60,000 nt of DNA from Bolinopsis microptera (taxonomy: Eukaryota > Ctenophora > Tentaculata > Lobata > Bolinopsidae). Positions 8,351 to 27,491 of this stretch are shown here, piece by piece. The first letter of the stretch is position 1, and every line of letters starts with the position of its first letter. The DNA lies in NCBI RefSeq assembly GCF_026151205.1, contig NC_087077.1, forward strand, positions 13,926,983-13,986,982. Direction: 5' to 3'. The notes below the pieces were generated by a model. That model saw only the letters and a list, made by a program, of their open reading frames with translations, made no database searches and was not told the origin of the DNA. The position numbers and the translations under genes were made by a program.

Positions 8351-9140
8351 TGCCGTTGTCATGACTACTAGGCTATAATGCAGCGTGCGAAAGCTGGTGA
8401 ACTTGAGGAAAGAAAAATTTTTTAGGAAAGAAAAATTTTTATTTACCACAAAACAATCAATACACAATACATAATGTTATATTCATAAATAAATTCAAAT
8501 TTCAATTTCAAACACATATACAGTACGCCGCGCACACAGCCACAATTTAAAAATGTTCAGAAATTCTTAGGTCAGCTGTAGGCGCCGCGCACATAATCTA
8601 TTTAATTCAAGAAAACAACAATTTCAAGAAAACAACAATTTTATTTAGTATCAATTAAAGCAGACAAAAATATATTTCATATATATATAACTAGCACGAA
8701 CTTTAGATCAGATATCTTAGGGGACTTGGAGTAGCAAGAGATTGACTAAAAGGTATATAACTTTTACAAAGATACGTCAAGAAGAATCCAGGGTGATACA
8801 GGATCGGAGAGTGCAGACCAAAAGTTTACGCACCCATCTTTGCCTCCTGAGTTCTAGGTTGGGTAGAAATTTATGCAAACTTGGTCGTTTATACTCCAAG
8901 TCCCTTTCTTAAAAGAAGTAGTATTAACTATGTCTAGAGTTAGCTTCGTTCAATAATAAAAATATCAATATAATCAATATCAATACCAGATAAACCTACC
9001 GAATAAATTATTAAATATCAATTAATTCATTCCGATAAAAATTTTTATAAATTTAGATATTTAACTTATCTAAAAACATTACAACAAATGTTTAAAAAGC
9101 GCCCAAAATCGATTTGAAAGATTTTCTGTCTATAGTTTCT
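8351..9140. other. Non-coding, with two perfect short tandem duplications
   Basis: About 8405-8445 carries GAAAGAAAAATTTTTTAG twice in tandem, and about 8608-8642 carries TTCAAGAAAACAACAATTT twice. The rest is AT-rich with no coding signal. Confidence 0.55.
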
Positions 9141-9144
9141 TTCT

Positions 9145-10233
9145 GGAAGTGATATTGACTTTGTGCCCTCTCAGTCAGATTTAGGAGTTGCAATAAACTC
9201 CAGGTTTAATTGGGGTGCACAATGTAAAGCGCTTGTTTACAAAGCTACATCTAGACTTGGACTACTTAAGAGAACATGTCATTTCACTACTGATAAAAGG
9301 CAGAAAAGATCGTTCTATTTAGCGTTAATTAGGTATTTGAACATTGTTCTGTCATATGGTCCCCTCAATCTGCAACTCATCTTCAACAGTTTGTTGCTAT
9401 CCAAAAGAGGGCTATTAAATGGATCAATGGTGAACCTTACTCCAGTTATAATGACGATAAACTTGCTACAGAGCAAAAGAAACTAAATATTCTCCCTGTT
9501 AAACAGAAGTTTATTTATAACGATCTTATGACCTTCTATAAAATAGTGAATAGCATAATTCCAGTTTCGCTCCCTACATATATAGTCCTATGCCGTCCAG
9601 AGGGCACCCGATACACTAGGCACAATGCTCAAATAATTGATATGTCGGATACTTCAACTTACATGAGTACCACTGTGCCCTGCTCGGATGCCTTCCGAAA
9701 TAGCTTTTTTCATAGATCTATGCTGAAATGGAATAGTCTACCAGTATGTATCCGGCAGTCAGAGCGGATTTCTACTTTTAAGGCCAAACTGATCAAGTAC
9801 CTCTGGGCTGCCGATACAGTCTGGCCAGATTAGCTCATCAATTTTTGTTGGTTACAATTCTGTCCGTCCAATTTCCTATCTGCTTGTCCTTTTCTTTTTT
9901 CTTTATCAGTTCTGACGGAATTGTAATGAACAAAATCCTTATAATTATTTATGATATGTTTGATTTCTTGTTAATGTTTGTCATTCAAATTTGGTAGACG
10001 GCCCCAACGTTAATGTGGCTCTTGCTATGTGTTGGTTCAGCCGAATTAATTATTATATAATCAAGTTTATTCTTCTCGTTAGTTGTCATCCGGCCAAACA
10101 TTAAGCAACTTATATTGCAGTACCATTTATCATTTAGTAATCAAAATATGTCATTGTAATTTTGCATGGCTGAAATGTAACGCTTGATTTATATATATAA
10201 TGATTAATTGAATTTTCAAATAAAAAAAAATAG
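9145..10233 (+). pseudogene. CR1-like LINE 3' end: RT C-terminal region plus 3' UTR
   Basis: The plus-strand reading SQSDLGVAINSRFNW, then LVYKATSRLGLLKRTC, QKRAIKWINGE, RQKFIYNDLMTFYKIV-like sequence, RNSFFHRSMLKWNSLP and FKAKLIKYL is the thumb/C-terminal part of a LINE RT, ending with a TAG near 9831. At least two frameshifts (about 9340-9380 and 9480-9530) break it. About 400 bp of non-coding 3' tail follows, ending in an A-rich stretch near 10216-10230. The RT core and endonuclease are missing, so it is 5' truncated. Confidence 0.8.
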
Positions 10234-10239
10234 TAATAG

Positions 10240-10698
10240 TAAGTGTGTGCCGCTGCAATTAGGTTTGATTACTGCAATTTAAAATTGTTTGGAGTCCAAG
10301 TATCTTTTAAGTCAGCTGCCTGTGCTTGTATTAATAGTGCTTTGGTTCTCAGTTTTATCAAGCTAATGGACGTTTCTAAGCAATTGCTTGAAGTTAAAAT
10401 TTTTTATGAACAGCGTTCCAAAGCTTGGCTGCATTAAACAAAAAGGTATTTGATTTATTTAGGAGAATAACCATTAGACTCGTTGCACGGTTTGAAATGT
10501 TGATAGCCTCATAAAGGGAGTATGGGCAGTGGTACTTGATAATCTTAGAGAATTCTAAAATACAGTGATATTTGTACAAGTTTTGAGCTGTAAGAATTTT
10601 TAATCTATTAAAAATGGGTTTTGTATGCTCCTTTTCAAAGTGTTTATGGTCTAGTTTTTGCAGACTGTATGGTCTAGTACGTGCACATGTTGATTGTT
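10240..10698 (-). pseudogene. LINE ORF2 C-terminus, separated from its upstream part by a 2-kb insertion
   Basis: On the minus strand the segment reads STCARTRPYSLQKLDHK, then FEKEHTKPIFNRLKIL, LYKYHCILEFSKIIKYHCPY and NAAKLWNAV. This is the C-terminal tail of the LINE whose RT half lies at 12703-13310. The two halves join in frame across the TA that flanks the intervening element (about YLDK|QSTCARTRP). Related copies at 13331 and 17954 show the same FGDKEAYL..K..ARTR order uninterrupted, which supports the join. Confidence 0.85.
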
Positions 10699-11000
10699 TA
10701 CCTTACTCGGGAATATTATAGCGGGTTAATTTATGACTGGGAAAATTAATAACCGGGAAAAATATGGCGGAATTTCCCAAAACCCGCCAAATTATCCCGG
10801 TCATGTATTTACCGGTGGCCGACCTTTCAAGATTTTTTCAGAGGTCAACAAATTTTCAACCGAAATTTCTGTTTTTGTTACTTGTTAAAGAAGTTATTTC
10901 AATTTACAGTTACTGATATTACTCAGAAATAGAAAAAAAGACACGTCTAGTATTTAAAGGAAAATAAATCTAAAGCAATAATAAGTCAAATCTTCATTAA

Positions 11001-11727
11001 GGGGGCCGGGGGGGGTCTTCATCAAAATTCTCTCGAAATTGATTTTATAGTTGTTTCTGATAGAGGGGAGTGATATCTATCAGCTGCTTTTGGTCCCATG
11101 GAAAAATATTGTTCCTAGCCAAAATTATCGCCAGTCAAAGGTCAGCGCTCATGTGTAATTGTATTGCGCGAGCGATTTTCAATCGCGCGCCCTGAAAATC
11201 GAGTCTAAAAATCTATCTTCTCCTACATTTTTTGAGCAATCACCCTGAAACTTTCAGGATATGTTCTAGGGATCATTTAGAAGATATCTGTCGAGCCGAA
11301 TTTTGAGATAGGCCTTAGAAGATTTTTTATTCAATTTTGAAAATCTTGGACCTGGAAAAATCGTAAAAAAATGAGGTCCAAGATTTTCAAAATTGAATAA
11401 AAAATCTTCTAAGGCCTATCTCAAAATTCGGCTCGACAGATATCTTCTAAATGATCCCTAGAACATATCCTGAAAGTTTCAGGGTGATTGCTCAAAAAAT
11501 GTAGGAGAAGATAGATTTTTAGACTCGATTTTCAGGGCGCGCGATTGAAAATCGCTCGCGCAATACAATTACACATGAGCGCTGACCTTTGACTGGCGAT
11601 AATTTTGGCTAGGAACAATATTTTTCCATGGGACCAAAAGCAGCTGATATATATCACTCCCCTCTATCAGAAACAACTATAAAATCAATTTCGAGAGAAT
11701 TTTGATGAAGACCCCCCCCCGGCCCCC
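11001..11727. mobile_element. 727-bp near-perfect foldback MITE, TTAA target site
   Basis: Two arms of about 353 bp (11001-11353 and 11374-11727) are almost perfect reverse complements around a loop of about 20 nt (GGAAAAATCGTAAAAAAATG). The ends are GGGGGCCGGGG..CCCCGGCCCCC. TTAA flanks both sides (10997-11000 and 11728-11731), the target site of piggyBac-like and some other DNA transposons. It has no ORF. A short diverged relative lies at 39417-39538. Confidence 0.9.
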
Positions 11728-11731
11728 TTAA

Positions 11732-12418
11732 AGCGTATTCTCATTCTCATTATCGCTAATGTCCCCTCCATTATCATTATTGATATCCCCCTGCTGCTGA
11801 CCGTCAAATTCGAAGTTGTATTGTTGGGGGGGGGGAGCCAAGTAGATTTTTGTAGATATTTGGATAATGTCATCCACTTTTTTCGTGAATTATCCATTAC
11901 AATAATCTACAAATATCTACATTTATCTACAAAAAATGTATATCTAAATTATGTGCCCAGAAATTCTACTGAATTTTTGGAGATAAATGTATAAATTTGT
12001 AGAATTTTCGTGAATTATCCATTGACAATAATCTACAAATATCTACATTTATCTACAAAAAATGTATATCTCAATTATGTGCCCAGAAATTCTACTGAAT
12101 TTTTGGAGATAAATGTATAAATTTGTAGAATGTCATCCACTTTTTTCGTGGATTATCCATTCTACATTAATCTACAAATATCTACAAATATCTACTTGGC
12201 TCCCCCCCCCCCTATTGTTGTCTTAACAAGACTTTCATTTTGTCCGCTAATGGGGCTACTGCTCTGAAGGTCAGGCGGAGCTTAATTTCCTGCCCACCGC
12301 TTGGTATTGGGGAACGTCTTGGCTTTGCATCTTCAACTGCTCCAGTAATCAATCCACCGTGGACCATGAAATAGTGGCACAGTTTACTCACTTCATGGGC
12401 AAGAAAAGTGAGAATCAC
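11732..12418 (-). pseudogene. Coding remnant (about 100 aa) inside the TIR element, split by a MITE
   Basis: On the minus strand a reading frame runs from an ATG at 12418 through HEVSKLCHYFMVHGG and LADKMKVLLRQQ to about 12219, where it meets the 386-bp MITE. Skipping the MITE and one 8-bp duplication, it continues YNFEFDGQQQGDINNDN to an acidic Asp/Asn/Glu-rich end and a TAA at the TTAA site of the neighbouring foldback. I recognise no domain. It may be the C-terminus of the element's lost transposase or a captured host fragment. Confidence 0.5.
11827..12212. mobile_element. 386-bp MITE with 8-bp target duplication
   Basis: TATTGTTG is duplicated at 11819-11826 and 12213-12220. The ends are inverted: a G run followed by AGCCAAGTAGAT, and ATCTACTTGGCT followed by a C run. 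Inside, a unit of about 127 bp (TTTTCGTGAATTATCCATT to AAATTTGTAGAA) is repeated about 2.3 times. An 8-bp duplication is typical of hAT elements, but the G-run end is not the usual hAT end, so assignment is tentative. It interrupts the coding remnant described separately. Confidence 0.85.
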
Positions 12419-12702
12419 GGTCCACCCTGAAATCTGATTTCTATAACCAAATTGTGATTTTTATAACGAAATTATGGTAGCAACCGCCAATAAAGTTACA
12501 GCCCTCCATCCACTGCTTCAAAAGTCTTCTCTAGCACATATGAGACTTCAGGTAAAATATGATGATCACCACCCCCTTGGAACCCCATAATCTGAGTCGG
12601 CGGGTTTTTTTATGACTGGTAAAATTTTTGACCGGGAAAAATATGGCGGAATCTTCCAAAACCCACCACTTTATCCCGGTTATAATAATCCCGAGTAAGG
12701 TA

Positions 12703-13310
12703 TCTAAATATGAGTCAAGGTCGCCAAAAAGGATCCTTATACAGTGCTTCTGTGTGATGAAAAGACTATCATTGGACCGTTCTTTGAGGACAACACCCCA
12801 AACACTTATACCATAACTGAGATGTGATTCAAAAAGAGCATTATATATTTTCAAATATAGTTCAGAAGGTATCGAGTGCCGAATTCTGCAGATTGCACCA
12901 GTCATAGATCGCAGTTTTTTACGGATGTAGTGCATGTGGGCAATCCAGTTTAGCTTACTATCTATAACAACACCTAAGAATTTGGTATCCTTGACTTTAG
13001 TAATAACCTTACCATTGATGAATATTGATCTAGATTCATCTAGCAGGATAGCAAATGGTCTGGTCCGTGCACAGGTGTCATCATATTCAGAGGCAGGTTT
13101 AAAATGTATGTAGCAGCATTTGGACATGTTGATATGAAGTAGATTACATTTCATGTAAATCGAGACATGTTTAAGTACTAAGTTGGCTTTTTTGTATGTT
13201 GCTTCTCTAGATGGTCCTGATATGAAGATATTAGTGTCATCAGCATAAAGTACAAATTTCACCTCACTGTCTGAAAAGCAGTTTACTATATCGTTCATAA
13301 TTAGCAAAAA
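12703..13310 (-). pseudogene. LINE ORF2 fragment: RT catalytic region to thumb
   Basis: The minus strand encodes KFVLYADDTNIFISG (RT motif with YADD), then CNLLHINMSKCCYIHF, KDTKFLGVVIDSKLNW, HIRYIRKKL-like sequence, LFESHLSYGISVWG and QKHCIRILFGDLDSYLD, stopping at the TA of the 2-kb element. The tail continues at 10698-10240. The 5' part is missing. The fragment ends near 13310, where it meets a plus-strand fragment of the same family head to head (13313-13909). Confidence 0.85.
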
Positions 13311-13312
13311 AA

Positions 13313-14600
13313 CTAGCCAGCTGCTGTGGCATGCTAAATAGAATTAAAGATAACATTCCCACATCACTCCATAAAGATCTATATCACACTCTGTTTGAAA
13401 GCTATCTTGCATATGGTATAACTGTCTGGGGAGGGGCATCTAACAAAAAACTTGAACCTCTGTTCAAAGCACAGAAAATGTGTGCCCGCATAATGTTTGG
13501 AGATAAAGAAGCATACTTGGATAAATTTAAAACTAGTGCACGATGCAGACCCTACGGGGAGCAAATCTTGGGCAAGGAATTCTACAGAAAGGAGCATACA
13601 AAACCCCTCTTCAACACTCATGAAATCATGAATGTGCATAATCTGTACTTCTACCATTGTATTAATGACATCTTCAAGATCTTGAAATATAGAACCCCTA
13701 TATCACTATACTCCCTCTTTGAAACATCTGGCAGACTTGGCAAAGAGACCCTCATTCTCACACCTAAACCATCAGACAGCTACATATACAGAGCAGGGAC
13801 AATATGGAATACAGTACGACAAAATCTCATGCTAACTACATTCACCTGTTATAAGCCCAATCACCTCAAATCATCCATAAGAATCACCATCACTCACACT
13901 CAAAATTAAAAGGAAGGAGAACCAAATGACTGGAACTTAGCCTTAAACAGCGTTCGACAAAATTCAAAAACTTTAAAATTGACCTTGCCTAGATTACTTA
14001 AGCTTGAAAAAGCGGTAATATCTTAGCAAAATATAACTTGCAGCAGCCCCATACCTTGTCATGAACATAATATCGAAACTACCTCTGTGATCACATCTTT
14101 CTCTGGGTGCAAAATGAATATATATATAGGTTTATTAGTTTTATAGAAATTTAAAAGTTCTATAGAAATTTATTATATAAGGATTATAAACATTTTGTTT
14201 GTGTGTTTTGTGTTATGCATTTTTATACCTATTTTAGAAGAGATTTTTATAGAATGTTACAAGTGCAGTAGGGTCAGTTTCAGACGAATTAAGCATAAAT
14301 GACATCATTGCCATGTCTGAAGTGGTTTGTAAATGGGCCATTGTTAGCCCCAAGCGTTTTGGTCCCTCATTCCTGCCACTCAGCATTGCCTACTGTAAAG
14401 TAGAAATTTTTCTAAGATAATAGAGAAACTGACCTTGTCTCACTAAATTCAACCACTTACCATAATTAAAATACTAACAACCAAATAAAGTTTTTTTAAA
14501 TAATTATATACAATCACCAAAAATATTTCCTCAAGTTTACTTCTAGCTAACTAATTCGTGGTTTAAGCTCTTATTTTATTTATGATTAAAGGAATGTAAA
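13313..14600 (+). pseudogene. LINE ORF2 C-terminal fragment and 3' UTR
   Basis: The plus strand reads LNRIKDNIPTSLHKDLYHTL, FESYLAYGITVWGGAS, KMCARIMFGDKEAYLDKF, HCINDIFKILKYRTPISLY and YRAGTIWNTVRQNL. It is homologous to the minus-strand fragments at 10240-10698 and 17954-18496. The reading frame is open from 13331 to 13909, with a frame break at the extreme C-terminus. About 690 bp of AT-rich non-coding sequence follows and is probably the LINE 3' UTR plus flank. The two family members meet head to head at 13310. Confidence 0.8.
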
Positions 14601-14639
14601 ATAAAACTTTTCGTTTCATTGAAAACTTTTCGTTTCATT

Positions 14640-15920
14640 GGATAAAAGAATATCGTGATCAAGGGTGTCGAAGGCTTTGCTCAAGTCAATGAATATCCCT
14701 AGGACATGTTTATTGCTTGCCAGAGACTTAGTAACGGAGTCTATAGATTTGTGTAGAGCATGGGTGGTAGAATGGCCTTTTCTAAATCCAAACTGTGAGT
14801 CTGTTAGTACACCTTTAGATGTGAAGAAATTATAGAGGCGTTTATAAATTACCTTCTTGAAGATCTTTCCAAATAAAGGTAATATTGATACAGGCCGATA
14901 GTTTTCAATGCATTCCTTATTGTCTTTCTTGTAAATAGGAATAACTTTACCAGTTTTAAAAATACTTGGGAATGTACCATTTTGTATACATGTGTTGTAA
15001 AGCCTAGCCAAGGTACCAGCAATGAGCTTGGCCGGTTTTTTTACAACAACTATAGGTATGTCACTCGCCTTACCATTTTGAAAATCTCTGATCACCTCTA
15101 TAATTTCTTCTTCATTAGTTTCTTCCAGGTATATGGAGTCAGATACCGAATTAGACATAAACTGAGCAAATGATTCTACTGGTTCCAGGGAAATACTATT
15201 GTTTGACAGTACATTTTTATTGAGATTACTTGCAAGAGATGTAAAATATTCACAGAATTTGTTAGCAATTATTCGTCTGCAAGTAACTCTCTGGCCATCT
15301 ATAACAAAATCGTCCTTACATCTAGACAAATTTTTGCCACGGAGTTCATTTATAATTTCCCAAGTCTTTTTTGAGTTCATGCTGTACTTCTCGAATTTTT
15401 GAGTATAGCACATAGCCTTTGCCATCTTTATTGAGCTCTTGAGAAACTTGTCGAATTCCTTGTAGTAGATGTGCTTGTTTGGATCCCCATCAGGTAGTTT
15501 TAATGTACAAGTCTTCTTCCATTCGAAATACAACCTAGCTTTCTTGTCGATGGAGTTAATGAGGCCCTGGGTGATCCAAGGGTTGGTTATGCTGTTACGT
15601 TTAGTGGTTCTAGGAGTTAGAAGTTTGCAAGACAAATCTATCTTTTCTTGAAATAACTGCACGAAAGAGTCAAATGTGTTACAGCTGTGGTGGAACCTAT
15701 CTATATCGTTTTCTATTTCAAGACAGAGCTTCTCTAAGTTAGCATTACTATAGTCGTAGTGTATAGTAATTTTGTCTGATGAATCAGATGTTGGCACAGA
15801 GTCAGGGGAAAGTTCAATAAGAGTGAATATAGGGTGATGGTGGGAGATCTTGTCAGATATCACACCAGAAATAAGGGATTGATCTACGACATTGGTATGG
15901 ATATTGTCAATACAGGTCCT
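14640..15920 (-). pseudogene. LINE ORF2, endonuclease end and RT N-terminal half
   Basis: This continues the endonuclease of the 15884-16822 frame after a one-base shift near 15915 (CIDNIHTN, then ISDKISHHHPIF, where the SDH-like HHHP is the last APE motif). The connecting region follows, then RT: IPIYKKDNKECIENYRPVSI, FGFRKGHSTTHAL and GIFIDLSKAFDTLDHDILL. This covers RT motifs 1 to A (FIDLSKAFDT, with the first catalytic Asp). The copy stops at about 14640 in a perfect short tandem duplication (AAAACTTTTCGTTTCATTG repeated), so motif C (YADD) and the tail are lost. It could not supply polymerase activity. Confidence 0.85.
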
Positions 15921-16822
15921 GGAACAGCCATGGTTGGTATGAAGCCGTTGTTGAATATTATTTCTTGGAATTTGTCCTCTGATGGAGATGGGTCGTTCAA
16001 AATGTTAACATTGAAATCACCAAGAATATATACTTTTTTGCCATTCAGTTTTGAGAGAATACATTCATACGCTTTGTTGAACATCTCAAGTGATGCGTTT
16101 GGGGGACGGTATATAACCCCTACGACAGTTGGATCTTGCAAGCTAGTGATAGATACAAACAGTGATTCTATGTGTTCATTACAGAGAGATAAGTCAGTGA
16201 TTTTGTTTAAGTTAAGGGAATCGTGTAGGTAAAGACACACTCCTGACCCTTTACCCTTGAACTGGTTTTTCTCTTGGCAAAAGTAGCGTGATTGGTAACT
16301 GGAGGAGTATCCGTTAAGCTGATACAGAGTTCCATTTTCGGGATTAGTGTTTGTTTCTGCAAGGCCGATAACAGAGAATTTGTGGTCGATACAAGACAAT
16401 TCAACTGCAAAGTTGTCAAAGTTTGATGCATTTCCATCAATATTTAGAAATAATTTTGACAAATATTTAGCTGAATTTTTAGGTAGGATGGTGGCATTCA
16501 ACTCTGTTATTGAGAATGTTTTGCAATTTTCAAGAATCTTTGAGCTATTGTAGATAGATTCAATATAATTAACTGGCTCATCATCAATGAGGCCATTGTT
16601 TGCAAAGTGGGGAGCTTGGTGGAAAGGGTTATACCGAACGATATCATTGGCATCAGTGCATATTTTGCAGTATGTTGCATCTCGAAATTTGACTATGTTA
16701 TCATCAGTTTTGCATTTTTTGTGCATTATTTTGTCACACATCTGACAAGTTATGAATGGATGTCCAGCACGCACAGGTCTATTGCAGCAGCAGCAAATTT
16801 CGCATATTAGTTTGGCTATCAT
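15884..16822 (-). pseudogene. LINE ORF2 N-terminus: Cys-rich zinc finger and APE endonuclease
   Basis: The ATG at 16822 overlaps the ORF1 stop as ATGA. Residues about 8-55 carry CEICCCCNRPV, CQMCDKIMHKKC and YCKIC, a PHD/RING-like zinc-binding pattern. Residues about 120-300 are an AP-endonuclease-like domain: FLNIDGNASNFDNF, VIGLAETNTNPENG (catalytic Glu), VGVIYRPPNAS and VYILGDFNVNIL. PHD-like fingers before the endonuclease are known in some CR1 elements. The frame ends at 15884 because of a one-base frameshift near 15915. The following frame continues the endonuclease. Confidence 0.85.
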
Positions 16823-17237
16823 GACATAACTACGGATCTACGAGAACGTGGGGAAAATCTTTTTTGGGCCTTGGTAACATCACTGAACAACCTCCCATCA
16901 ACAGGGCTACCTAGGATCTTATGTGCAATTGCCCGGGAGAGTTTAAAGATACCGCTTGACCCCAGGTGGATTGGGTCATCCGGCTTCTTGTATCTACAAA
17001 ACTGCTTGTCCAGTAGACCCTCCTCATCAACAAAACTATCAAAATCTAAAGTGCCTATTCTAGTATTAGTATTACAGTACCCAAATAATAAACTATTAAA
17101 CTCCATGGCTCTGTCATTCAGCCAGGAGGACCTAGTTGGAAGGATGGGTGAGACAATAACTTTAGAATATGGACACATATAATCACAAATATTCTTGAGC
17201 TTCTTCGTCAGCTCATTAGCCCAATGTTTAACATCAG
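16819..17237 (-). pseudogene. LINE ORF1 C-terminus: second half of SGNH hydrolase
   Basis: The minus strand reads DVKHWANELTKKLKNICDY, MCPYSKVIVSPILPTR, MEFNSLLFGYC and KPDDPIHLGSSGIFKLSRAI, ending VVMS and a TGA. DDPIHL supplies the Asp-x-x-His of block V of SGNH/GDSL hydrolases. The first half (GDSN and GINN blocks) lies at 18490-18700 across the inserted LINE. Such esterase-like domains are known in ORF1 of CR1-type elements. The stop codon overlaps the ORF2 start as ATGA at 16819-16822. Confidence 0.85.
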
Positions 17238-17239
17238 TT

Positions 17240-18478
17240 AAACAAAAATTTCAGTTAAACAAAAATTTCAATTTTATGCCATTTATTACAGATTAAACAA
17301 GTTTACAATAAATCAATTTGATATTTAACGGAATCCTAATTCAATGTGCAGTATGGTTGTCACTCTTTAAATAGATTAGATATAGGTTGACGGGGCAAAG
17401 GAGTGTGCGTGCTGTTCGCTATTGCTCACACCAAACGGCAACCTAGTAAATGTTTTGTATGAACACCGGTCTCCATCACGACACAAAATTAGGATTGTAG
17501 AATTTATTGTATAACTATTAGTGCAGTGGAGGTAGCGGTGTGGTGCATTAATAGAGTGACAGCCTACTGATTTAGAGTTGTTTTTAAGTGAGCATAATGG
17601 GTGTATTTTTGGATCTAATGGCAACTTTAAAATTTGTTCTTTTAATCATTTATTAAATATCAGTTTAAAAATATATAAATCTGGAATCTGTTCACTCTGT
17701 GAACCAGTCCTAAAAAAATTCCAAAAACCCTCCTAAATTAAATATTAAAAACGTCTCAGTAATGGAAATAGTCATATAATTAAGAAATTATCCAAATTCT
17801 TAATATCTACCTAAGAGAAAAATACCTACCTAAGTCAATTTCTACCTGTAATACACTAAATATTAGGTTAAATACAAAGGTGGTGGAGTCAGCACACATT
17901 TACCAAAATCAAAATTGTTTAATAGGAGGAGCCTGTGGGCCGAGATCACTGGATTAAATTTGATGAAGGGGATTGTTTTCAAATGACAGCTGCATTATGT
18001 CATAATCGCTTGTGGTCCATGCCGAATCAATATAAGCATGTTGCAGCTTTAGAAGTGCCTTTTTCAGGCGACTTTTAGCAAGGCTAATCTTGTAGGAGTA
18101 GTCAAAGAGCTTAAGTTTAGGTGCAATTGTGTTCCAAATTTTGGTGGATCTTGATATAAAGTCATTAGATGGGAGTTGTGAAATGATAGTGGTTTCCTTT
18201 CTAGAAGATGACTGATAATGCTGTTGCAGTGATGCTGGGCACCTTAGTTTTAGTATTTTAAAAACTTCCATAAATGTGTGATATGTATATAAATTTTTGA
18301 AAGCCAGGATGTTTTGTTGCTTGAAAAGTGGTTTACAGTGCTCTAGTTGGAAGAATGTATGGTCAAGTGCCTGGCTGTCAAACTCTCTTGTTCTTGCACA
18401 TGTAAGAAACTTGTTTAGGTATGCCTCTTTATCACCAAAGAGGACCCGTACACAGTGCTTCTGAGACAGCCAGATACT
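17240..18478 (-). mobile_element. 3' fragment of a related LINE inserted inside ORF1
   Basis: On the minus strand 18470-17954 reads WLSQKHCVRVLFGDKEAYLN, LTCARTREFDSQALDH, FKNLYTYHTFMEVFKILKL and STKIWNTIAPKLKL. This is the open C-terminal tail of a LINE ORF2 of the same family as the fragments at 10240 and 13331. About 700 bp of 3' UTR follows to 17240. It splits the SGNH domain of the host ORF1. Both junctions are marked by perfect short tandem duplications: CAGTTAAACAAAAATTT twice at about 17237-17270, and CAGATACTTG twice at about 18470-18492. No matching long target duplication was found. The 3' UTR block around 17390-17560 resembles about 38470-38640. Confidence 0.8.
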
Positions 18479-19604
18479 TGCAGATACTTGCATCACCCCC
18501 TCCCCTCTTGATATTATTTATACCACAGTGTACTACAACGTTCTTGTATCCAACACAAAGAACAGGGTCTAACTGATCTATTGTGAAACATTCGATTCTT
18601 TTCCCAGGCAGCTTGTGTCCAAATGTTCCTTTTCCAGCCCCAAATTTGAGGAACCGGGTGTTTGAATCACCGACAATCAAGGTCGCATTGATGCTCCTGC
18701 TTACGTAGCGGAAGGTAATACTGTATCTTAAGTCCCTCTTTTCTGTGCTTTTATCAATTCGGTGGTCCCAAAGAAACTGGGACTGTTTGCTCATGACATA
18801 GAGACTACGTCCCTCTATTGTCTCTATGACCTCTCCTTCAAGCTGATCCTTTTTTGTGAATTTTACAGAGCAATCACCACCTAAGGATACTGTAAATATG
18901 GAACTATCATGGACCAGTGATTGCTCGTTATCAGAGTGCTTAGGAAGAAAACTGTTCCCATCAGTGTACCGATTTATCAAGCACTGATTGATTGTTGAGC
19001 TAGGACATTCTTCCTTTATCTTGGAGACAAGCTCATTCAGAACATCAGGGAAGTCTGTCGATTATGGTTTTTCAGCTTTAGCCCCGGGGTATTGATAAGG
19101 TTCGCCAAAGCTCAGAACCCCATGCCCATTTTCGGAGTTACTATCAAAGGCTTCCTTATGTTGGTCTAAGAAAACTAAAAGCTCAGAGTTCAATTTTTCA
19201 TCTACAAATTCTGGGACATACGACAGAATATGCTTGGACTTAGGGTCGTCTACAGTTGCATGCTTCTGTGCATCTAGGAGAAGCTGTTCTTGGTCCATTT
19301 CACATGGTGCAGGTGACCCTATATTAAAAGGAGGCATGGGCAGATCAGGGGTGGCAACATTTGATGACCTACTGTTTTTAAAACAGTTTATGTCAAGTTT
19401 GAGCTCAGCAAGCTTGCTGTTGATGGAGTCGAGAGTTCTGAGATGGCTATCGTTGTCTTTAAGGTTCTTGATGGACTTCTGAATGGCTTCTAGAGAATCT
19501 TGTAGAGAGCTACCATCCGAGGTAGTGTGACCCATTGGCATGCTCAAGCTGCAAGGCTGACAAGTAGGAAGAGGACTTGACTTCGTTTTCACATCTCTGT
19601 CCAC
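18478..19604 (-). pseudogene. LINE ORF1: AlkB-type 2OG-Fe(II) dioxygenase followed by SGNH hydrolase N-half
   Basis: This part starts in an upstream helical region (about 19480-19380) and enters an AlkB-like domain: LSFGEPYQYPGAKA, an in-frame TAA at 19062-19064, then FPDVLNELVSKIKEEC, INRYTDGNSFLPKHSDNEQ (iron ligands His-x-Asp at 18938-18930), FTVSLGGDCSVKF, FLWDHRI (third ligand His at 18764-18762) and LRYSITFRYV (the RxxxxxR pair, 18728 and 18710, for 2-oxoglutarate and substrate loop). The HxD..H..R..R order and the 12- and 6-residue spacings at the end fit the AlkB/ALKBH2-3 group, which repairs alkylated DNA or RNA. SGNH follows directly: TLIVGDSNTRFLKFG (block I Ser) and VVVHCGINNIKRG (block III). 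Apart from the TAA and the upstream frameshift all catalytic residues are present. Confidence 0.85.
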
Positions 19605-20061
19605 TTACTACAGCACAAACACTTTCAGCAAGACCTAGCAGGGATAGGAGACCTTCGGCTAAAGTTAGTTTGTTCAGGGATGAACAACTCTTGATCATGG
19701 CTGGTGTAATGATCGCAAACTTGTTTACTTCAAGTTTCAGGATACTGCAAATGTTAATCTTGATTAAGTCTACCTCTGAGCGTAGGTTCTGTGCGTGGGT
19801 TAACAGATAGGTGTCGAGGGGAGCAGATCTATTTGAGAAGAAACTAAGGAGACTGCTGACATTTTTGTCTCCTTCTGAGTCCTGATTTTCTGAATGAATT
19901 AGTTTATCGACATCTCTAAGCATTTCGTCAATATTGTCAATGACTGAAGCTGAGGAAGTGGTGGGTGTATCCTGATCGGGAACCGTAGTGGATGAAGTCT
20001 GGTCTGCAACAGGTTGAGGTTTCTCACACTTTTCTTGAGTGTCAGTGGGGGTTTCCATCAT
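19580..20061 (-). pseudogene. LINE ORF1 N-terminal region
   Basis: The minus-strand reading from a pair of ATGs at 20061/20058 begins METPTDTQEKCEKPQP, passes a Ser/Thr/Asp-rich leader (TSSASVIDNIDEMLRDVDKL) and enters a helical, Leu-rich stretch (TYLLTHAQNLRSEVDLIKIN to LAEGLLSLLGLAESVCAVVSG). Near 19595 a frameshift moves the coding into the 19604-19062 frame. I recognise no domain here. By position it is the oligomerisation or RNA-binding part of a LINE ORF1, which is an inference. Sequence upstream to about 20290 is the likely 5' UTR. Confidence 0.65.
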
Positions 20062-20290
20062 GGCGAAGAGGCAATGGGGGTACCAGGCAGACCAGGGGGC
20101 ACCTTCACGTCCAACTAGCACACTCACTGAAAAGAAGGAAGAGCAGAAAGCAGTTTGAAATGTTCTGTTGTGGAAAACAATGAAAGTGTTAACTGGATTA
20201 TAGTCAAAATGATTCAAAAGATTGAAAAATTGAACAGACTGACGGACTACGACACATGGGACAAGAGAGTGAGTGAGTATGAAAAATATG

Positions 20291-21190
20291 AGGTGGTTGG
20301 ACTGGCAAGCCCTATCATTTAATCAGAATACATTACATATAATCCATAAGCCATATATATATGTCAGCCTGTTCTTGGAGCACAGCCCCAAAAGTTATCA
20401 GAAGTGAAGTTCAAGTTTTAAGTTTAAAATTCTTTCAACACTATCTACACATTAATCAGGGTTGTCCAATTGTCCAATTGTGGATTGTGGTGTGAATGGA
20501 GTTATACATTGCCAAACAGAAACATTATTCACTACAACTACTTAACTTCTTAACAGGTTAAGAGTGCCAGTCTTCTGTTTCAGCACCCCCTGGACCATCA
20601 TAGTTCCCCCGATGCAGTTGACTTTAGCAAGCCATGGACATATTGGACATCCTCAAATTATTTGTTATATAGTAGTGTTGAAAGTATTAAATCTTACAAT
20701 TACATGTCACATTTCTTAATTTCTAGAGCCAAAATTTCAGAAGCAAAATAATTTAAAAGATATTTCTGTTGTTCACGCAGTACAGGCCGTGAACACTGCA
20801 ACCTAATTAATATAATAATGGAGAGATTCCAAAAAACCGCGCGCTCGTTATTTGTGATTAAATTGAGTGTGCGCCACTGTCAACCGCAGTACCGCTCAAG
20901 CATGAAGTACTAAGCGGTACGCAGTTTTGCGTGAGGCGTAGACATTTGTAGCACACGTTTCATTCAACTAATCCATTATGTGACATGTAATTATATTAAA
21001 GCAAAAAGAATATTAATTTTAGTAATAATTGACGTAAACATATAATGTGTTTAAATAACATCTATAATCTAGCGAGTTACTAATACCATTTGTTTGTATT
21101 ATTGATTATATATGTTTACACTAGCCTATATTATGATGGAGATATACATTGTATTATATAATTGCTCCAATATTCAACACTGCTAAACAA
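20291..21190. other. Non-coding spacer
   Basis: AT-rich with no coding signal. There is a short tandem TTGTCCAATTGTCCAATTG near 20462, and a GC-rich patch at 20835-20950 (CCGCGCGCTCG, and AGTACCGCTCAAGC facing AGTACTAAGCGGTAC) that might be an old TIR element. Its ends were not resolved. Confidence 0.5.
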
Positions 21191-21194
21191 CAAA

Positions 21195-21830
21195 TACCTA
21201 CTCGCCCATCGATGTTAGTTTCTTGTTGAGGGATGATATATGTGGTTTCCAGCTCAATTTATCGTCCATGATTACTCCGAGAAATTTTGTCTGACTTACA
21301 CGTTTAATTATTTTGTTATTAATGGACAAGTTTTGGCTATCTATATCGGCATCTAATTCGTTATTATTACGTTTAGAGGGAGAAAAATACATATAACAAC
21401 ACTTCTTTACATTAATGTGCAGTAGGTTAACTCCCATATACTTGTTTACGGCCTGTAGTACTTCATTAGCCAATTCGTATGCTTTATTTCTCGAATCGGC
21501 AGCGACAAATATATTAGTATCGTCTGCAAATAAGACAAATTTACCCTTTTTAGTTATATTGCATATGTCATTGATGTACAGTAGGAAAAGTAGAGGTCCT
21601 AATACACTACCCTGAGGGACCCCGAATTCAACCGGTAATTCATCAGATTTGGTATCCAAAACGTTTACAAATTGTTTCCTATTAGACAAATAACTAGAGA
21701 TAAGATTCAGAGCATTTCCTCTTATGCCATAGTTGTTTAACTTTGTAGTTAGTTTACAGTGGTCTAGAGTGTCAAAGGCTTTTGAGAGATCGATAAAGAC
21801 CCCTAGGACATGTTGCTTTTGATGTGACGT
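21195..21830 (-). pseudogene. LINE RT domain fragment (CR1/L2-like)
   Basis: The minus strand reads HVLGVFIDLSKAFDTLDHCK (motif A), GNALNLISSYLSNRKQFVNV, FGVPQGSVLGPLLFLLYIND (motif B), FVLFADDTNIFVAADS (motif C, FADD), VNLLHINVKKCCYMYF, and TKFLGVIMDDKLSWKPHI. It stops near 21200, before the thumb tail. The fragment is open with no internal stop over about 210 residues, but both ends are missing. It belongs to the same superfamily as the LINE at 14.6-20 kb and covers exactly the RT part which that copy lacks, so it may derive from a sister copy. Confidence 0.85.
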
Positions 21831-21860
21831 GGGAGGACACAGGGGGACTAAAGTGCAACG

Positions 21861-21990
21861 AAACTGCTGCTAACTGCTGCTAACTGCTGATATACTAACT
21901 GCTGCTAACTGCTGATGGCTGCTGCTAACTGCTGCTAACTGCTGCAAATGGCACACGCGCGTTAGCAGCAGTGAGCAGCAGTTAGCAGAA
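21861..21990. repeat. Degenerate AACTGCTGCT tandem array with a short inverted end
   Basis: AACTGCTGCT or AACTGCTG occurs about nine times between 21861 and 21945. It is followed by GTTAGCAGCAGTGAGCAGCAG, the same motif in inverted orientation, so the array can fold into a hairpin. Confidence 0.85.
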
Positions 21991-23609: not shown

Positions 23610-26600
23610 TTAAGTCACCCCGGTCTGATCCAGCTCCTCCGGCACAATTAAGCGTTTGGTGCGGTTTGCGAAATTGACAATTGTGGTGATGTGTTGGTTG
23701 TCGAATATGTCATTGACAGAGAGGTAGTAGTCCTGGAAATATTGACCTCTAATTTGGGCAATAGCCGGACACTGTCCAAGAAAGTGTGAGACAGTTTCCT
23801 CTCCGTCGCCGCACATAGGACAAGCACTGGTGTTTGATTTGCAAATGGTGTGAAGGTGTTTGTTTAAGCCGCAGTGACCCGTGATGAGGTGAACTGCAGT
23901 TCTGTAATCTTGTCTGTTTTTGCTGAGTGTAGTGTTGAGGTTTTTGATGATTTTGGCATGCTTGTGGCCGAGTGTCAGTTTGGTGTGTCTGGGACCGTCA
24001 GTTAACCAAGTTTCCTGATTCAGTCTGTTGACTTTGTTGTCGATTTGACGCTTGATGTAGGATTGAGGAATTGGACACTTCAAAGTGGATTCACTGATTG
24101 TACCAAGCTTGGCCAGCTCATCTGCTTTTTCGTTCCCCCACAATCCGATGTGTGCTGCAATCCATCGTATCTCTAGCGTGTTGTTGGATCCGAGTGCATT
24201 AAGAGAGTCGTAACAGTCTCTTGTAGTTCTACTCCGCGTTGAAAGCGCAGAGATAGCTTGTATAGATGAGAGACTGTCAGACCATATGATGATGTGTGTG
24301 TTGGTATAGGTAGAGAGATATTTGCAAGCTTCAATGATGGCGGTGAGCTCTGTTTGGTAAACAGTGCAATAATCAGGGAGCTTGAATGATCTTTCTTCAA
24401 GGGTGGTGTTATTGTTGTCAGTTGTGATGATATAGCCAGCCCCGCATCCTGAGTCAGTGAGTGACCCGTCAGTGTAGCAGGTGATCGTTTCACTGGTAAT
24501 GTTGTCAATGGTGTTTTGAAGTGAATTTCTATATTCAGTGTTGTCGGCTCCAGGAGTTGTGACGGTGAAGTGCCGTCCCAGCATCATGGTTGGTGTTGTT
24601 AGGTCTCTCGTTGCTCTAGGTGGGATAATGAGGTCTGCCATGAATTGTTTGTTGATAGTGGTATGATTTTTGATAGTTCCCTTCCTGAAGGCGATAGTTT
24701 CAAGAGTGAGGCTGCCATAAGCTTGTAGCCTGGCCGCACCCTTTGCTGCTTCGCCTTGCAGGAACAGTATGATGTCAGAAGTGTCGGTGAGGTGATTCAA
24801 TGCGATAAAAGGTGTGCTTGGCATGGCACCAGACATCATTCTGAGTGCCAATGCCTGCACACGTTTGAGTTTCTTTGCGTTATAGTCCGTTTGAGTGGCC
24901 CTGATCCATATACTACAGCAGTAGGATAGGATTGGACGGATGACAGCCGTGTACATCCATTTGCATGTTTTAGGGCTCATACCCCATGTGGGGCCGACAG
25001 CTCTTCGACATTGCATGAGGGATGCCGTGGCTTTTTTGGTGGTGTTGATGATATGTTCATTGAAATTGAGTTTGCTGTCCAAGGTGACTCCTAGAAATTT
25101 AGCAGACTTGGAAAGACCTATAATGTTGTTGCCAACTGTTATAGGTCTTAGAGTCCACTTACTATTCCAGGTAAACATGACTATCTGAGTTTTAAGGGCG
25201 CTAATAGATAGCTCTTTGGTTCTGCACCAATTTTCTATCGTTTTAATAGTTTTGCATGTTCGGTCCCAGATGATGTCTAAATCATCCCCTTCCGCTAGAG
25301 ACAACAGATCATCCGCAAAGGCTTGCAGGTAACCCGGGATGTCTTTTGCGGTAAAGGAAAGGAGATCGTCGACTACCAGATTCCAGAGAAAAGGAGAGAG
25401 AATGCCTCCTTGGGGGCAACCTCGCCTGATCCGTACCCTTCTCGACTTATCCTTATGATTTAGTGTGATGAATCGATTGGTTACCATGTTGATGATCCAC
25501 TGTGCAGTAGCCAAGTCCACTTTCGTAGCCTTGACTGCTTCAGAGATAGCCTTGAACGAGACATTGTCGAAGGCGCCCTCTATATCTAGAAAGACACCTA
25601 GGACATATCCTTTCTTGGCTATTCTGCGCTCAATGGTGTGAGTAACTTTATGAAGTGCCGCTTCTGTGGAGCAGCCCTTCTTAAAGCCGAATTGTCGTTT
25701 GTTGATATCATTAGCTATGTTGAGGTCATGTTGCATATGCCATAAGATCACTTTCTCCTGCAACTTTAACATCACGGGCGAAAGAGTGATCGTTCGAAAT
25801 GACTTAGCTTTGTTGTAGTCGGTTTTTCCAGGCTTAGGGAGAAAGATTCCAAGAGAGTCCCTCCACAAAGTTGGGATGTGTTGCGTTTCATGGTTTTTTG
25901 TCATAATGTTTTTTGTTATGTCTTTGATATGAGCCCAGGCTTTCTGGAATATGATAGGTTTTAGAGTGTCAGGTCCTGCAGCCTTCAAGGGATCGAAGGA
26001 TAGGAGAGCCTTTTCGATTCTTTCAGGGCTGTAGATTTTGTCTAGTAAGTCTGTGGAGATCGGTAAGGGGCAGAGAGGCGGAACTGGCGGATCAGTAACA
26101 CTCTCCTTGAAGTGGGTTTGTGTCATGACCTCCAGTGTCTCCTCTGCGTTTTTGGTGAGTTCGCCATTTGGTTTATAAACGGCTTCAAGTTTGTTATTGG
26201 TGTCAGTACAGGTTTTCAGAATCTTGTTCATCCTTCCAGATTCCTTAACCGATTCTGTGTCTGCGCAGAATTTCCGCCACGCATTGCGCTGGGAGTTGGA
26301 CAGGATCTTGTTGTATTGCTTGTTGCTTTCTCTAAGAGCGAGCCACGAAGCATCAGTTTTGATTCGACGAGCTGTGATGAGTTTGCGTCTTATACCCCTC
26401 TGTGCTTCCTCAACTTCTCGAGTTAGCCAGGGTGGTTTTCTGACAGCGCTGGAGATGTAAGTAATGGGACATGCCTCCTCGAAGGCAGCTCGGAGAGTAG
26501 TATTAATGGTGTTAACTTTGTGATCAATGTCGTGTGGTGTGTTAACGCAGGTGTTGTGGAGATCATTGTTGTTGTAAAGAATCTCGTCAAATTTCGCCCA

Positions 26601-27455
26601 GTCAGTGTTCTTGACTAGGCGTATTTGTCTTGGTTCTTTTTTGGGACCAGAAGTAATGTCGAACATGATATATCTGTGATCGGAGTTTGAGTAAAGATCA
26701 CTAACGTGCCAGTTACTGATCAGTTCAGCCCCCAGTTGGTTGGTAATAGTGAGGTCAATGATGGAATTATGACCTCGTGAGTTGAGGAATGTTGGAGTTG
26801 AACCTTTGTTGGAACAGGAGAGCCCTAGCGACGAGAGGAAATCAAGTAGTTCCTCTCCTCTTCTATTGCACAACTTGTTACCCCAAAGAGTGTGTTGGGA
26901 GTTGGTGTCAGAGCCTATTATGAGTGGTATTTTGTTGTCTATAGCGTATTTGGCTAGAGGTGTGGTTTCGTGGGATGGAGCTGGTCCATTAATATCCATG
27001 TACGAAGCTGCCAGAATTACTTCTGTCGAGCTAAGTTGAATCTTAATAGCAACTTGATCCGGGGTTGTGAATTGCGATAGTTCCCAACTTTTTTCAGCTA
27101 GGTTTTTGTGTATTACTATGGCGGCACGGGGCCTAATGTCCCCAACTTTGTAGTAATACTCGGTTAGTTCTTTGCTTATCGGTGGAATTAGGTGTTTGTT
27201 ATTAGTGTATGGTTCAGTCGCTAGTACAATAGGATTTTTCCTGCCATGAGTGTTCACCAGCAGGGTTTTCCAAGCGTTGTACTTGCGTTTAAGGTTGATT
27301 TGAGTAACAGAGTAATATTCATGATGAGTTTTACCTGTTTTTTTGGTATTGGGGACGTGGCGTGCAGCACCTGCAGTTACCCTCACCGGACGGGTACTAG
27401 GACCTTTTGGATTGGGCACTGTGTCGGGGGGCTGGTCGAAGTCGAATAGCAGCAA
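23610..27455 (-). CDS. Non-LTR retrotransposon ORF2: APE endonuclease, reverse transcriptase, RNase H, zinc knuckle (1281 aa)
   Basis: The endonuclease (about residues 50-280) shows VTQINLKRKYNAW, VLATEPYTNN, LIIGSDTNSQHTLWG and YSNSDHRYIMF, as in R1-clade elements. RT (about 460-760) shows LDIEGAFDNVSF (motif A), RRGCPQGGILSPFLWNLVVD (motif B) and YLQAFADDLLSLAEG (motif C). RNase H (about 985-1115) shows ITCYTDGSLTDSGCGAGYI, YQTELTAIIEACK, IIWSDSLSSIQAI and IRWIAAHIGLWGNEKADELA, giving the D, E, D and late D residues. A CPMCGDGEETVSHFLGQC knuckle follows near 1210. EN-RT-RNase H order is known in the R1, I, LOA and Ingi groups. The EN motifs favour R1-like, but the clade is an inference. The 45-residue leader before the endonuclease may belong to an ORF1/ORF2 overlap. 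The protein would nick target DNA and prime cDNA synthesis there. Confidence 0.93.
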   Translation of the reverse strand: MLLFDFDQPPDTVPNPKGPSTRPVRVTAGAARHVPNTKKTGKTHHEYYSVTQINLKRKYNAWKTLLVNTHGRKNPIVLATEPYTNNKHLIPPISKELTEYYYKVGDIRPRAAIVIHKNLAEKSWELSQFTTPDQVAIKIQLSSTEVILAASYMDINGPAPSHETTPLAKYAIDNKIPLIIGSDTNSQHTLWGNKLCNRRGEELLDFLSSLGLSCSNKGSTPTFLNSRGHNSIIDLTITNQLGAELISNWHVSDLYSNSDHRYIMFDITSGPKKEPRQIRLVKNTDWAKFDEILYNNNDLHNTCVNTPHDIDHKVNTINTTLRAAFEEACPITYISSAVRKPPWLTREVEEAQRGIRRKLITARRIKTDASWLALRESNKQYNKILSNSQRNAWRKFCADTESVKESGRMNKILKTCTDTNNKLEAVYKPNGELTKNAEETLEVMTQTHFKESVTDPPVPPLCPLPISTDLLDKIYSPERIEKALLSFDPLKAAGPDTLKPIIFQKAWAHIKDITKNIMTKNHETQHIPTLWRDSLGIFLPKPGKTDYNKAKSFRTITLSPVMLKLQEKVILWHMQHDLNIANDINKRQFGFKKGCSTEAALHKVTHTIERRIAKKGYVLGVFLDIEGAFDNVSFKAISEAVKATKVDLATAQWIINMVTNRFITLNHKDKSRRVRIRRGCPQGGILSPFLWNLVVDDLLSFTAKDIPGYLQAFADDLLSLAEGDDLDIIWDRTCKTIKTIENWCRTKELSISALKTQIVMFTWNSKWTLRPITVGNNIIGLSKSAKFLGVTLDSKLNFNEHIINTTKKATASLMQCRRAVGPTWGMSPKTCKWMYTAVIRPILSYCCSIWIRATQTDYNAKKLKRVQALALRMMSGAMPSTPFIALNHLTDTSDIILFLQGEAAKGAARLQAYGSLTLETIAFRKGTIKNHTTINKQFMADLIIPPRATRDLTTPTMMLGRHFTVTTPGADNTEYRNSLQNTIDNITSETITCYTDGSLTDSGCGAGYIITTDNNNTTLEERSFKLPDYCTVYQTELTAIIEACKYLSTYTNTHIIIWSDSLSSIQAISALSTRSRTTRDCYDSLNALGSNNTLEIRWIAAHIGLWGNEKADELAKLGTISESTLKCPIPQSYIKRQIDNKVNRLNQETWLTDGPRHTKLTLGHKHAKIIKNLNTTLSKNRQDYRTAVHLITGHCGLNKHLHTICKSNTSACPMCGDGEETVSHFLGQCPAIAQIRGQYFQDYYLSVNDIFDNQHITTIVNFANRTKRLIVPEELDQTGVT

Positions 27456-27491
27456 CCAGCGTCTCCGGGAGAAAACTGTGTTTCTCTAAGA

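Follow-up and report, generated by a model that had tools for sequence, protein, structure and literature searches.

What is an AlkB-type dioxygenase doing inside a retrotransposon, and does it belong to the element's own protein? The question is raised by a 60,000-nucleotide stretch of the genome of the ctenophore Bolinopsis microptera (contig NC_087077.1, positions 13,926,983 to 13,986,982; hereafter the window), whose minus strand holds a copy of a long interspersed nuclear element (LINE) running from ∼20.69 kb down to 8607. LINE open reading frame 1 (ORF1) is known to encode an RNA-binding protein, which in some clades is an esterase. An initial sequence-only reading described the ORF1 of this copy as an AlkB fused to an SGNH hydrolase, and profiles, predicted structure, copies and selection support that description for an element best called CR1/L2-like. 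The best explanation, which we hold to be probable if not by much, is a CR1/L2-like family whose ORF1 joins a helical N terminus, an ALKBH2/3-type AlkB domain and an SGNH hydrolase, the AlkB oxidatively removing N-methyl groups from packaged RNA or cDNA.

The diagnostic motifs lie where they had been reported. A single minus-strand frame within 18478–19604 holds HSD (18938–18930), DHR (18767–18759) and RYSITFR (18728–18708), and continues into the GDSN and GINN blocks of the hydrolase. When searched against Pfam profiles, the frame 18432–19061 matched PF13532 at E = 2.5e-16 (60.9 bits; cut-off 31.2), covering profile positions 71–194 only, and also matched PF03171 at 1.9e-6. The proposed SGNH domain found no Pfam match on the window pieces; it was recovered, however, by a profile built from relatives, which placed AlkB on both sides of a TAA stop and SGNH in the frames 18432–19061 and 16819–17250, the latter holding the DDPIHL block past an inserted LINE fragment. 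On these grounds the AlkB (2-oxoglutarate- and Fe(II)-dependent dioxygenase) domain was placed at 18696–19232, the first part of the SGNH hydrolase with GDSN and GINN at 18491–18692 (106 bits with the family profile) and its second part, with DDPIHL at 16980–16963, at 16894–17236 (136 bits), all on the minus strand. The N-terminal part of ORF1 (19510–20061, minus) is helical and coiled-coil-like, with helices in the model of an intact relative. A chance motif match as the source of the AlkB signal was rejected on the strength of the PF13532 match, the profile relatives and the predicted structure.

The copy itself is dead and unable to make an ORF1 protein, because it carries a frameshift, an in-frame stop and nested insertions. 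A TAA at 19064–19062 splits the AlkB domain, the N-terminal part (first ATG at 20061) lies in a different frame from the AlkB part, and a 1254-base insertion interrupts the SGNH domain. An intact ORF in the window was rejected, with the TAA inside AlkB, the N-terminal part in another frame and the collinear pieces broken by insertions. The LINE insertion that had been recognized inside the hydrolase does exist, but it occupies 17237–18490, whereas 16819–17236 is ORF1 resumed.

Related sequences are abundant in the same genome, with all match counts being lower bounds. PF13532 was matched 151 times, far beyond chance, with 150 of 587 candidates scored; of the 150 listed, 105 lay in open frames no shorter than 550 amino acids. 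With the window frame 18480–19061 (194 amino acids) as query, 150 matches of 840 candidates were scored, the query included, 93 of them in frames of at least 600 amino acids; 16 other places were 93–99% identical, 11 of these in open frames of 702–711 amino acids, and further groups followed at 80–82%, 59–60% and 43–49% identity. Open ORF1–ORF2 pairs were present in several loci, including L044, while L041 has an open ORF1 and a split ORF2. Many diverged families keep the same order, AlkB then SGNH, followed by an ORF2 with endonuclease and reverse transcriptase (RT). All eight LINE ORF1s scanned with Pfam carry PF13532, accompanied by a GDSL profile at E ≤ 0.01 in five and a PHD finger in four (both below cut-off); RT was found in all seven family-locus ORF2 frames scanned and an endonuclease profile at E ≤ 0.01 in six (not L024), with no RNase H in any of the seven. 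By these features the element appears to be a CR1/L2-like non-long-terminal-repeat retrotransposon, the clade label resting on architecture because the RT tree held sequences of this genome only and long branches met in it. The window LINE is one defective member of a family with recent activity. Copies combining AlkB, SGNH and an adjacent ORF2, which the sequence-only reading had proposed to look for, were found among near copies and diverged families; the case it had set against itself, an AlkB carried by this copy only, fails in view of the AlkB present in near copies and many diverged families.

Outside this genome, 82 homologous proteins were obtained from the protein database in a search made mainly with the AlkB part, and the relatives bearing an organism name among the database matches listed were Mnemiopsis leidyi proteins only. 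The M. leidyi protein P0059 is ORF1-like and repeats a short AlkB–SGNH junction segment, IFRYVSQNSSDAT, many times. In the genome of the window itself, a single frame of 1003 amino acids at L027:5259-8267 contains endonuclease, AlkB and SGNH, either as a genuine fusion or, perhaps, as the result of an in-frame nested insertion.

Purifying selection has preserved the AlkB ligands in many families. In an alignment of 74 ORF1s (A1; 13 from this genome and, after 21 mostly short sequences had been removed by hand, 61 from the set of 82 database proteins), the iron and 2-oxoglutarate ligands HxD, H, R and R were complete in 73 rows, including all 13 from this genome, and six columns of the ORF1 alignment did not vary at all; these include the two histidines that bind iron and the second arginine. 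The SGNH residues S, N, D and H were complete in 64 of the 74 rows, with five of the other ten gapped at the D/H block; this count is partly a matter of alignment, since block I reads SSS instead of GDS in L009, L022 and L028 and L009 is misaligned there, and for this reason we do not claim that AlkB is better kept than SGNH. Ratios of nonsynonymous to synonymous substitution (dN/dS) for AlkB, SGNH and the N-terminal part, respectively, were 0.075, 0.080 and 0.167 between families A and B, 0.097, 0.075 and 0.194 between A and A2, and 0.110, 0.084 and 0.164 between A2 and B; dS was saturated in comparisons with family C. The corresponding polymorphism ratios (pN/pS), pooled over 12 family A rows with one locus counted twice (L030, L041), were 0.139, 0.127 and 0.286. 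Segment exchange between families A and B is suggested by a dS far lower in SGNH (0.33) than in AlkB (1.86).

The closest solved relatives of the AlkB domain by sequence were ALKBH3 and ALKBH2, and ALKBH2/3 were also the closest by fold; ALKBH5 was absent from the best 60 of 74 matches to solved structures. In a tree of 29 AlkB domains (27 rows hand-chosen from a 101-row set, plus two added), 24 mobile-element AlkBs split from five cellular ALKBH2/3 with support of 94/87 (not starred), and the 22 mobile-element rows without the L013 type had 99/97. A quick tree of all 101 rows supported the SGNH-LINE and Helitron rows at 96 and the host rows at 79, with L013 unplaced. Cellular ALKBH3 and ALKBH2 carry RxNLTFR, whereas the domain described here carries RxSxTxR, is fused to SGNH and is encoded by a mobile element; RxSxT(F/L/Y)R was seen in 11 mobile-element rows versus RxNLTFR in three host genes. 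Identities of AlkB and RT covary over 12 LINE families (Mantel r 0.82, a value reached in none of 5000 permutations; the set includes close pairs), a pattern that fits long common descent. L009 and L022 are 98% identical in RT and 66% in AlkB, a pair which shows that ORF1 exchange between families can also occur. A viral origin was not supported, as the BFVD matches (giant viruses, Picornavirales-like, plant viruses and phage) were no closer than ALKBH2/3; those that look like AlkB had 12–25% identity in the fold search, viral rows being outside the trees.

AlkB was also encountered in Helitrons and in a second LINE clade, neither of which the sequence-only reading had anticipated, any more than it had sister ORF1s that lack AlkB. 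In L010 (4303–9999) and L014 (3383–10000) a single frame, truncated where the locus stops, encodes SGNH, AlkB, DUF6570 and Helitron_like_N, and Helitron-type AlkB frames reach 3388 amino acids in the genome search. L012 (2732–5767) has a PIF1 helicase frame downstream of SGNH–AlkB, and L015:1388-3826 and L018:3335-5491 were grouped with the Helitrons by their similar SGNH–AlkB part. The domain order in Helitrons is SGNH before AlkB. In the distant LINE clade (L013:3903-9773, L017:3995-9998 and L019:3791-6121) AlkB lies early in ORF1, a profile scan gave no SGNH match in the three ORF1s, and the RTs of L013 and L017 are 23–27% identical to other LINE RTs. LINEs and rolling-circle Helitrons both have a single-stranded nucleic-acid intermediate, and AlkB may therefore act as a guard of such intermediates. 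We put forward tentatively, as a possibility short of probable, that the mobile elements of this animal share an AlkB lineage of their own, marked by RxSxTxR, that moves between LINE clades and Helitrons, mostly with SGNH as its partner; as an ALKBH3-like repair enzyme owned by transposons, it would shield the single-stranded intermediates of transposition against alkylation or a methylating host defence.

For the LINE family, AlkB would most likely serve in repair, clearing N-methyl lesions from single-stranded RNA or cDNA within the ribonucleoprotein (RNP). An AlkB derived from an ALKBH3-like ancestor would work in a particle in which the ORF1 protein packages the element's RNA and the esterase may anchor or regulate the RNP at membranes, comparable to the membrane role proposed for the esterase of the element ZfL2-1 (PMC3905857, in part). 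There it would oxidatively strip N-methyl groups of the 1-methyladenosine (m1A) and 3-methylcytidine (m3C) type from packaged RNA or single-stranded cDNA, which would keep reverse transcription unblocked. We favour m1A/m3C-type lesions in single strands as the putative substrate because of the ALKBH3/2 relationship and the missing hairpin. Damage repair would suit somewhat better than erasure of N6-methyladenosine (m6A), as the nearest relatives, ALKBH3 and ALKBH2, repair lesions such as 3-methylcytosine (3mC), which is reported for ALKB2 and ALKB3 (PMC9246332, in part); viral AlkBs have likewise been proposed to keep RNA genomes intact (PMC9289625, in part). The original suggestion, an enzyme that clears the retrotransposon's RNA or cDNA of marks or damage, would fit these data. 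An alternative that we consider doubtful, yet deserving of attention, is that the target of AlkB is a regulatory mark set by the host on RNA (m6A or m1A) or DNA (N6-methyladenine, 6mA), whose erasure would let the element evade silencing. The AlkB of an orchid Ty3/gypsy element demethylates m6A in vitro (PMC9289625, in part), young mouse L1s gained 6mA, along with silencing, when Alkbh1 was knocked out (PMC4982230, in part), and N follows HxD in half of the A1 rows. Targets other than the element's nucleic acid, such as tRNA or protein, seem very improbable: ALKBH8, a tRNA enzyme (PMC4051686, in part), was matched as well (6.1e-17), but ALKBH3/2 outscored it. Chance capture of a host AlkB gene by one copy is so improbable that we reject it, with near-identical and far-diverged copies carrying AlkB and the mobile-element AlkBs separated in the tree from this genome's own host ALKBH2/3 (94/87).

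Several observations weigh against a role in N-methyl lesion repair. Alignment A1 is biased to AlkB carriers, its source search having been mainly AlkB-based. The residue after HxD, which we take to correspond to D194 of ALKBH3, shows N and D equally often, in 36 rows each out of 74, and because of this split the choice of substrate may differ from that of ALKBH3. A search with the SGNH part returned 80 proteins, 31 of them new, and 16 of the 31 had no AlkB match, so AlkB can be lost; 11 others had a motif-bearing AlkB (P0175 without the HxDxE pattern). The remaining new proteins, P0179, P0180, P0186 and P0200, have AlkB-like sequence without RxSxTxR, as does P0078; P0179 keeps HPD and the other four are without any HxD. 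These degenerate lineages retain SGNH, which would suit an AlkB fold serving as a nucleic-acid-binding or structural module of the ORF1 protein with catalysis dispensable, an explanation that we regard as improbable given the complete ligands in 73 of 74 A1 rows, all 13 of this genome included. The AlkB-less ORF1s, drawn from the protein database, nest inside the AlkB-bearing SGNH tree at an unresolved fork with P0179 (neighbouring forks 84–85 support, outgroup on a long branch; P0080, the fourth row without AlkB, is a fragment of 224 amino acids), a placement that fits AlkB loss. AlkB is strongly kept in most lineages sampled, yet able to decay or vanish.

The extent first assigned to the element, 14.6–20.1 kb, is too short and is part of a much-invaded copy. 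Five pieces are collinear with L041 (same-genome copy, G000:C4) at 98.1–99.8% identity: 20535–18491, 17236–14638, 13299–12701, 10703–10230 and 9136–8607. L045 extends the match to 20701 at 94.6%, and the common sequence starts near 20685 by eye; the 5′ end, placed from two copies, is approximate (about 20685–20701). At the 3′ end, common to two copies, short repeats end at 8607 and the flanks then diverge. The 5′ piece (18491–20690; L041 7501–5467, 98.6%) comprises the 5′ leader and most of ORF1. It is followed by insertion 1 (17237–18490, minus), the 3′ part of an L020/L011-family LINE that is also of the AlkB–SGNH type (99.1% to L020 1–738 over part), flanked by (T)GATG duplicates. The second piece (14638–17236; L041 5471–2851, 98.2%) holds the end of ORF1 and most of ORF2; the ORF1 stop and ORF2 start overlap in ATGA at 16819–16822, as in L041, and ORF2 (14616–16822) has a zinc-finger-like N terminus, an endonuclease (PF03372 at 0.0022, below cut-off) and the start of the RT (PF00078 at 1.8e-14), with its frame broken. 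Insertion 2 (13300–14637) includes 480 bases that match an L024-family LINE, AlkB–SGNH too, in reverse orientation, the rest being without match, and the host element lacks ∼164 bases at this point. The third piece (12701–13299, ORF2; L041 2686–2088, 99.8%) precedes insertion 3 (10704–12700), which has 27-base terminal inverted repeats (10699–10725 and 12676–12702, 89%). The fourth piece (10230–10703; L041 2092–1618, 98.1%) is separated by insertion 4 (9137–10229), a gap between collinear pieces with no match among the loci compared, from the last piece, which carries the 3′ end with short tandem repeats (8607–9136; L041 1608–1079, 98.7%). All five pieces, ORF2 and the ATGA overlap are on the minus strand. 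Within insertion 3, 11001–11726 is a near-perfect palindrome of two 353-base arms, 99% complementary, with 20 bases between them. Directly upstream of the element, an RT fragment (21201–21869, minus) is 63% identical to the AlkB-family locus L044. At 23613–27485 (minus) lies an open LINE ORF2 of 1291 amino acids with endonuclease, RT and RNase H, its RT identical to L019:403-2910; it belongs to another, RNase H-bearing clade.

Among known systems, ZfL2-1 (type IV esterase ORF1, CR1/L2; PDB 4c1b; PMC3905857, in part) shares an SGNH in ORF1 upstream of an endonuclease–RT ORF2 and a helical N terminus, and the family profile matches 4c1b at 4.5e-7. In contrast to ZfL2-1 and type IV, AlkB here directly precedes SGNH. 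The ORF1 has the SGNH with catalytic S, N, D and H that defines type IV, but the esterase is not its sole enzymatic domain; because AlkB is present besides the esterase, the sequences set it apart from type IV proper as an ORF1 type new to LINEs. A survey of ORF1 types, in which the words AlkB and oxygenase are absent, gave esterase ORF1s in vertebrate groups only (PMC4120745), and AlkB is also absent from the ZfL2-1 paper. GDSL/SGNH ORFs in bdelloid LTR elements and Terminons (PMC5408684) likewise represent a hydrolase module in unrelated element classes; AlkB has no occurrence in that paper, whereas here AlkB and SGNH are combined in LINEs and Helitrons. AlkB of plant RNA viruses (Alpha-, Betaflexiviridae, Closteroviridae; PMC9289625, in part) is similarly carried by a replicating RNA element, with RNA repair proposed, but is no closer by fold search than ALKBH2/3, and the replicon differs. 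The nearest published case is the ALKBH5-like domain in a Ty3/gypsy element of the orchid Phalaenopsis, a retrotransposon with AlkB for which in vitro demethylation was shown (PMC9289625, in part). The orchid element has LTRs and a separate extra ORF that is ALKBH5-like, features that the window family lacks; here AlkB is ALKBH2/3-like and SGNH-fused in a LINE ORF1. The AlkB passages in PMC11294593, PMC9246332, PMC4982230 and PMC6991124 concern host enzymes or a method, and AlkB is absent from the main text of the ctenophore genome papers PMC10232365, PMC11797021 and PMC12221973. Among the papers listed, by title and abstract opening, in searches of the open full-text literature, none described AlkB in a LINE or Helitron; most subscription journals, preprints and Repbase reports fall outside this scope and may list the architecture.

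A conserved nucleic-acid demethylase in ORF1 would, if true, constitute a new ORF1 type, and retrotransposons would then bring along a means of countering the methylation of RNA or cDNA. It would also open to direct test the question of whether retrotransposition is limited by alkylation or by methyl marks that the host writes. The presence of the AlkB–SGNH pair in Helitrons suggests that RNA-based and DNA-based elements trade genes from a shared pool. The AlkB-less and AlkB-degenerate sister ORF1s offer natural comparisons.
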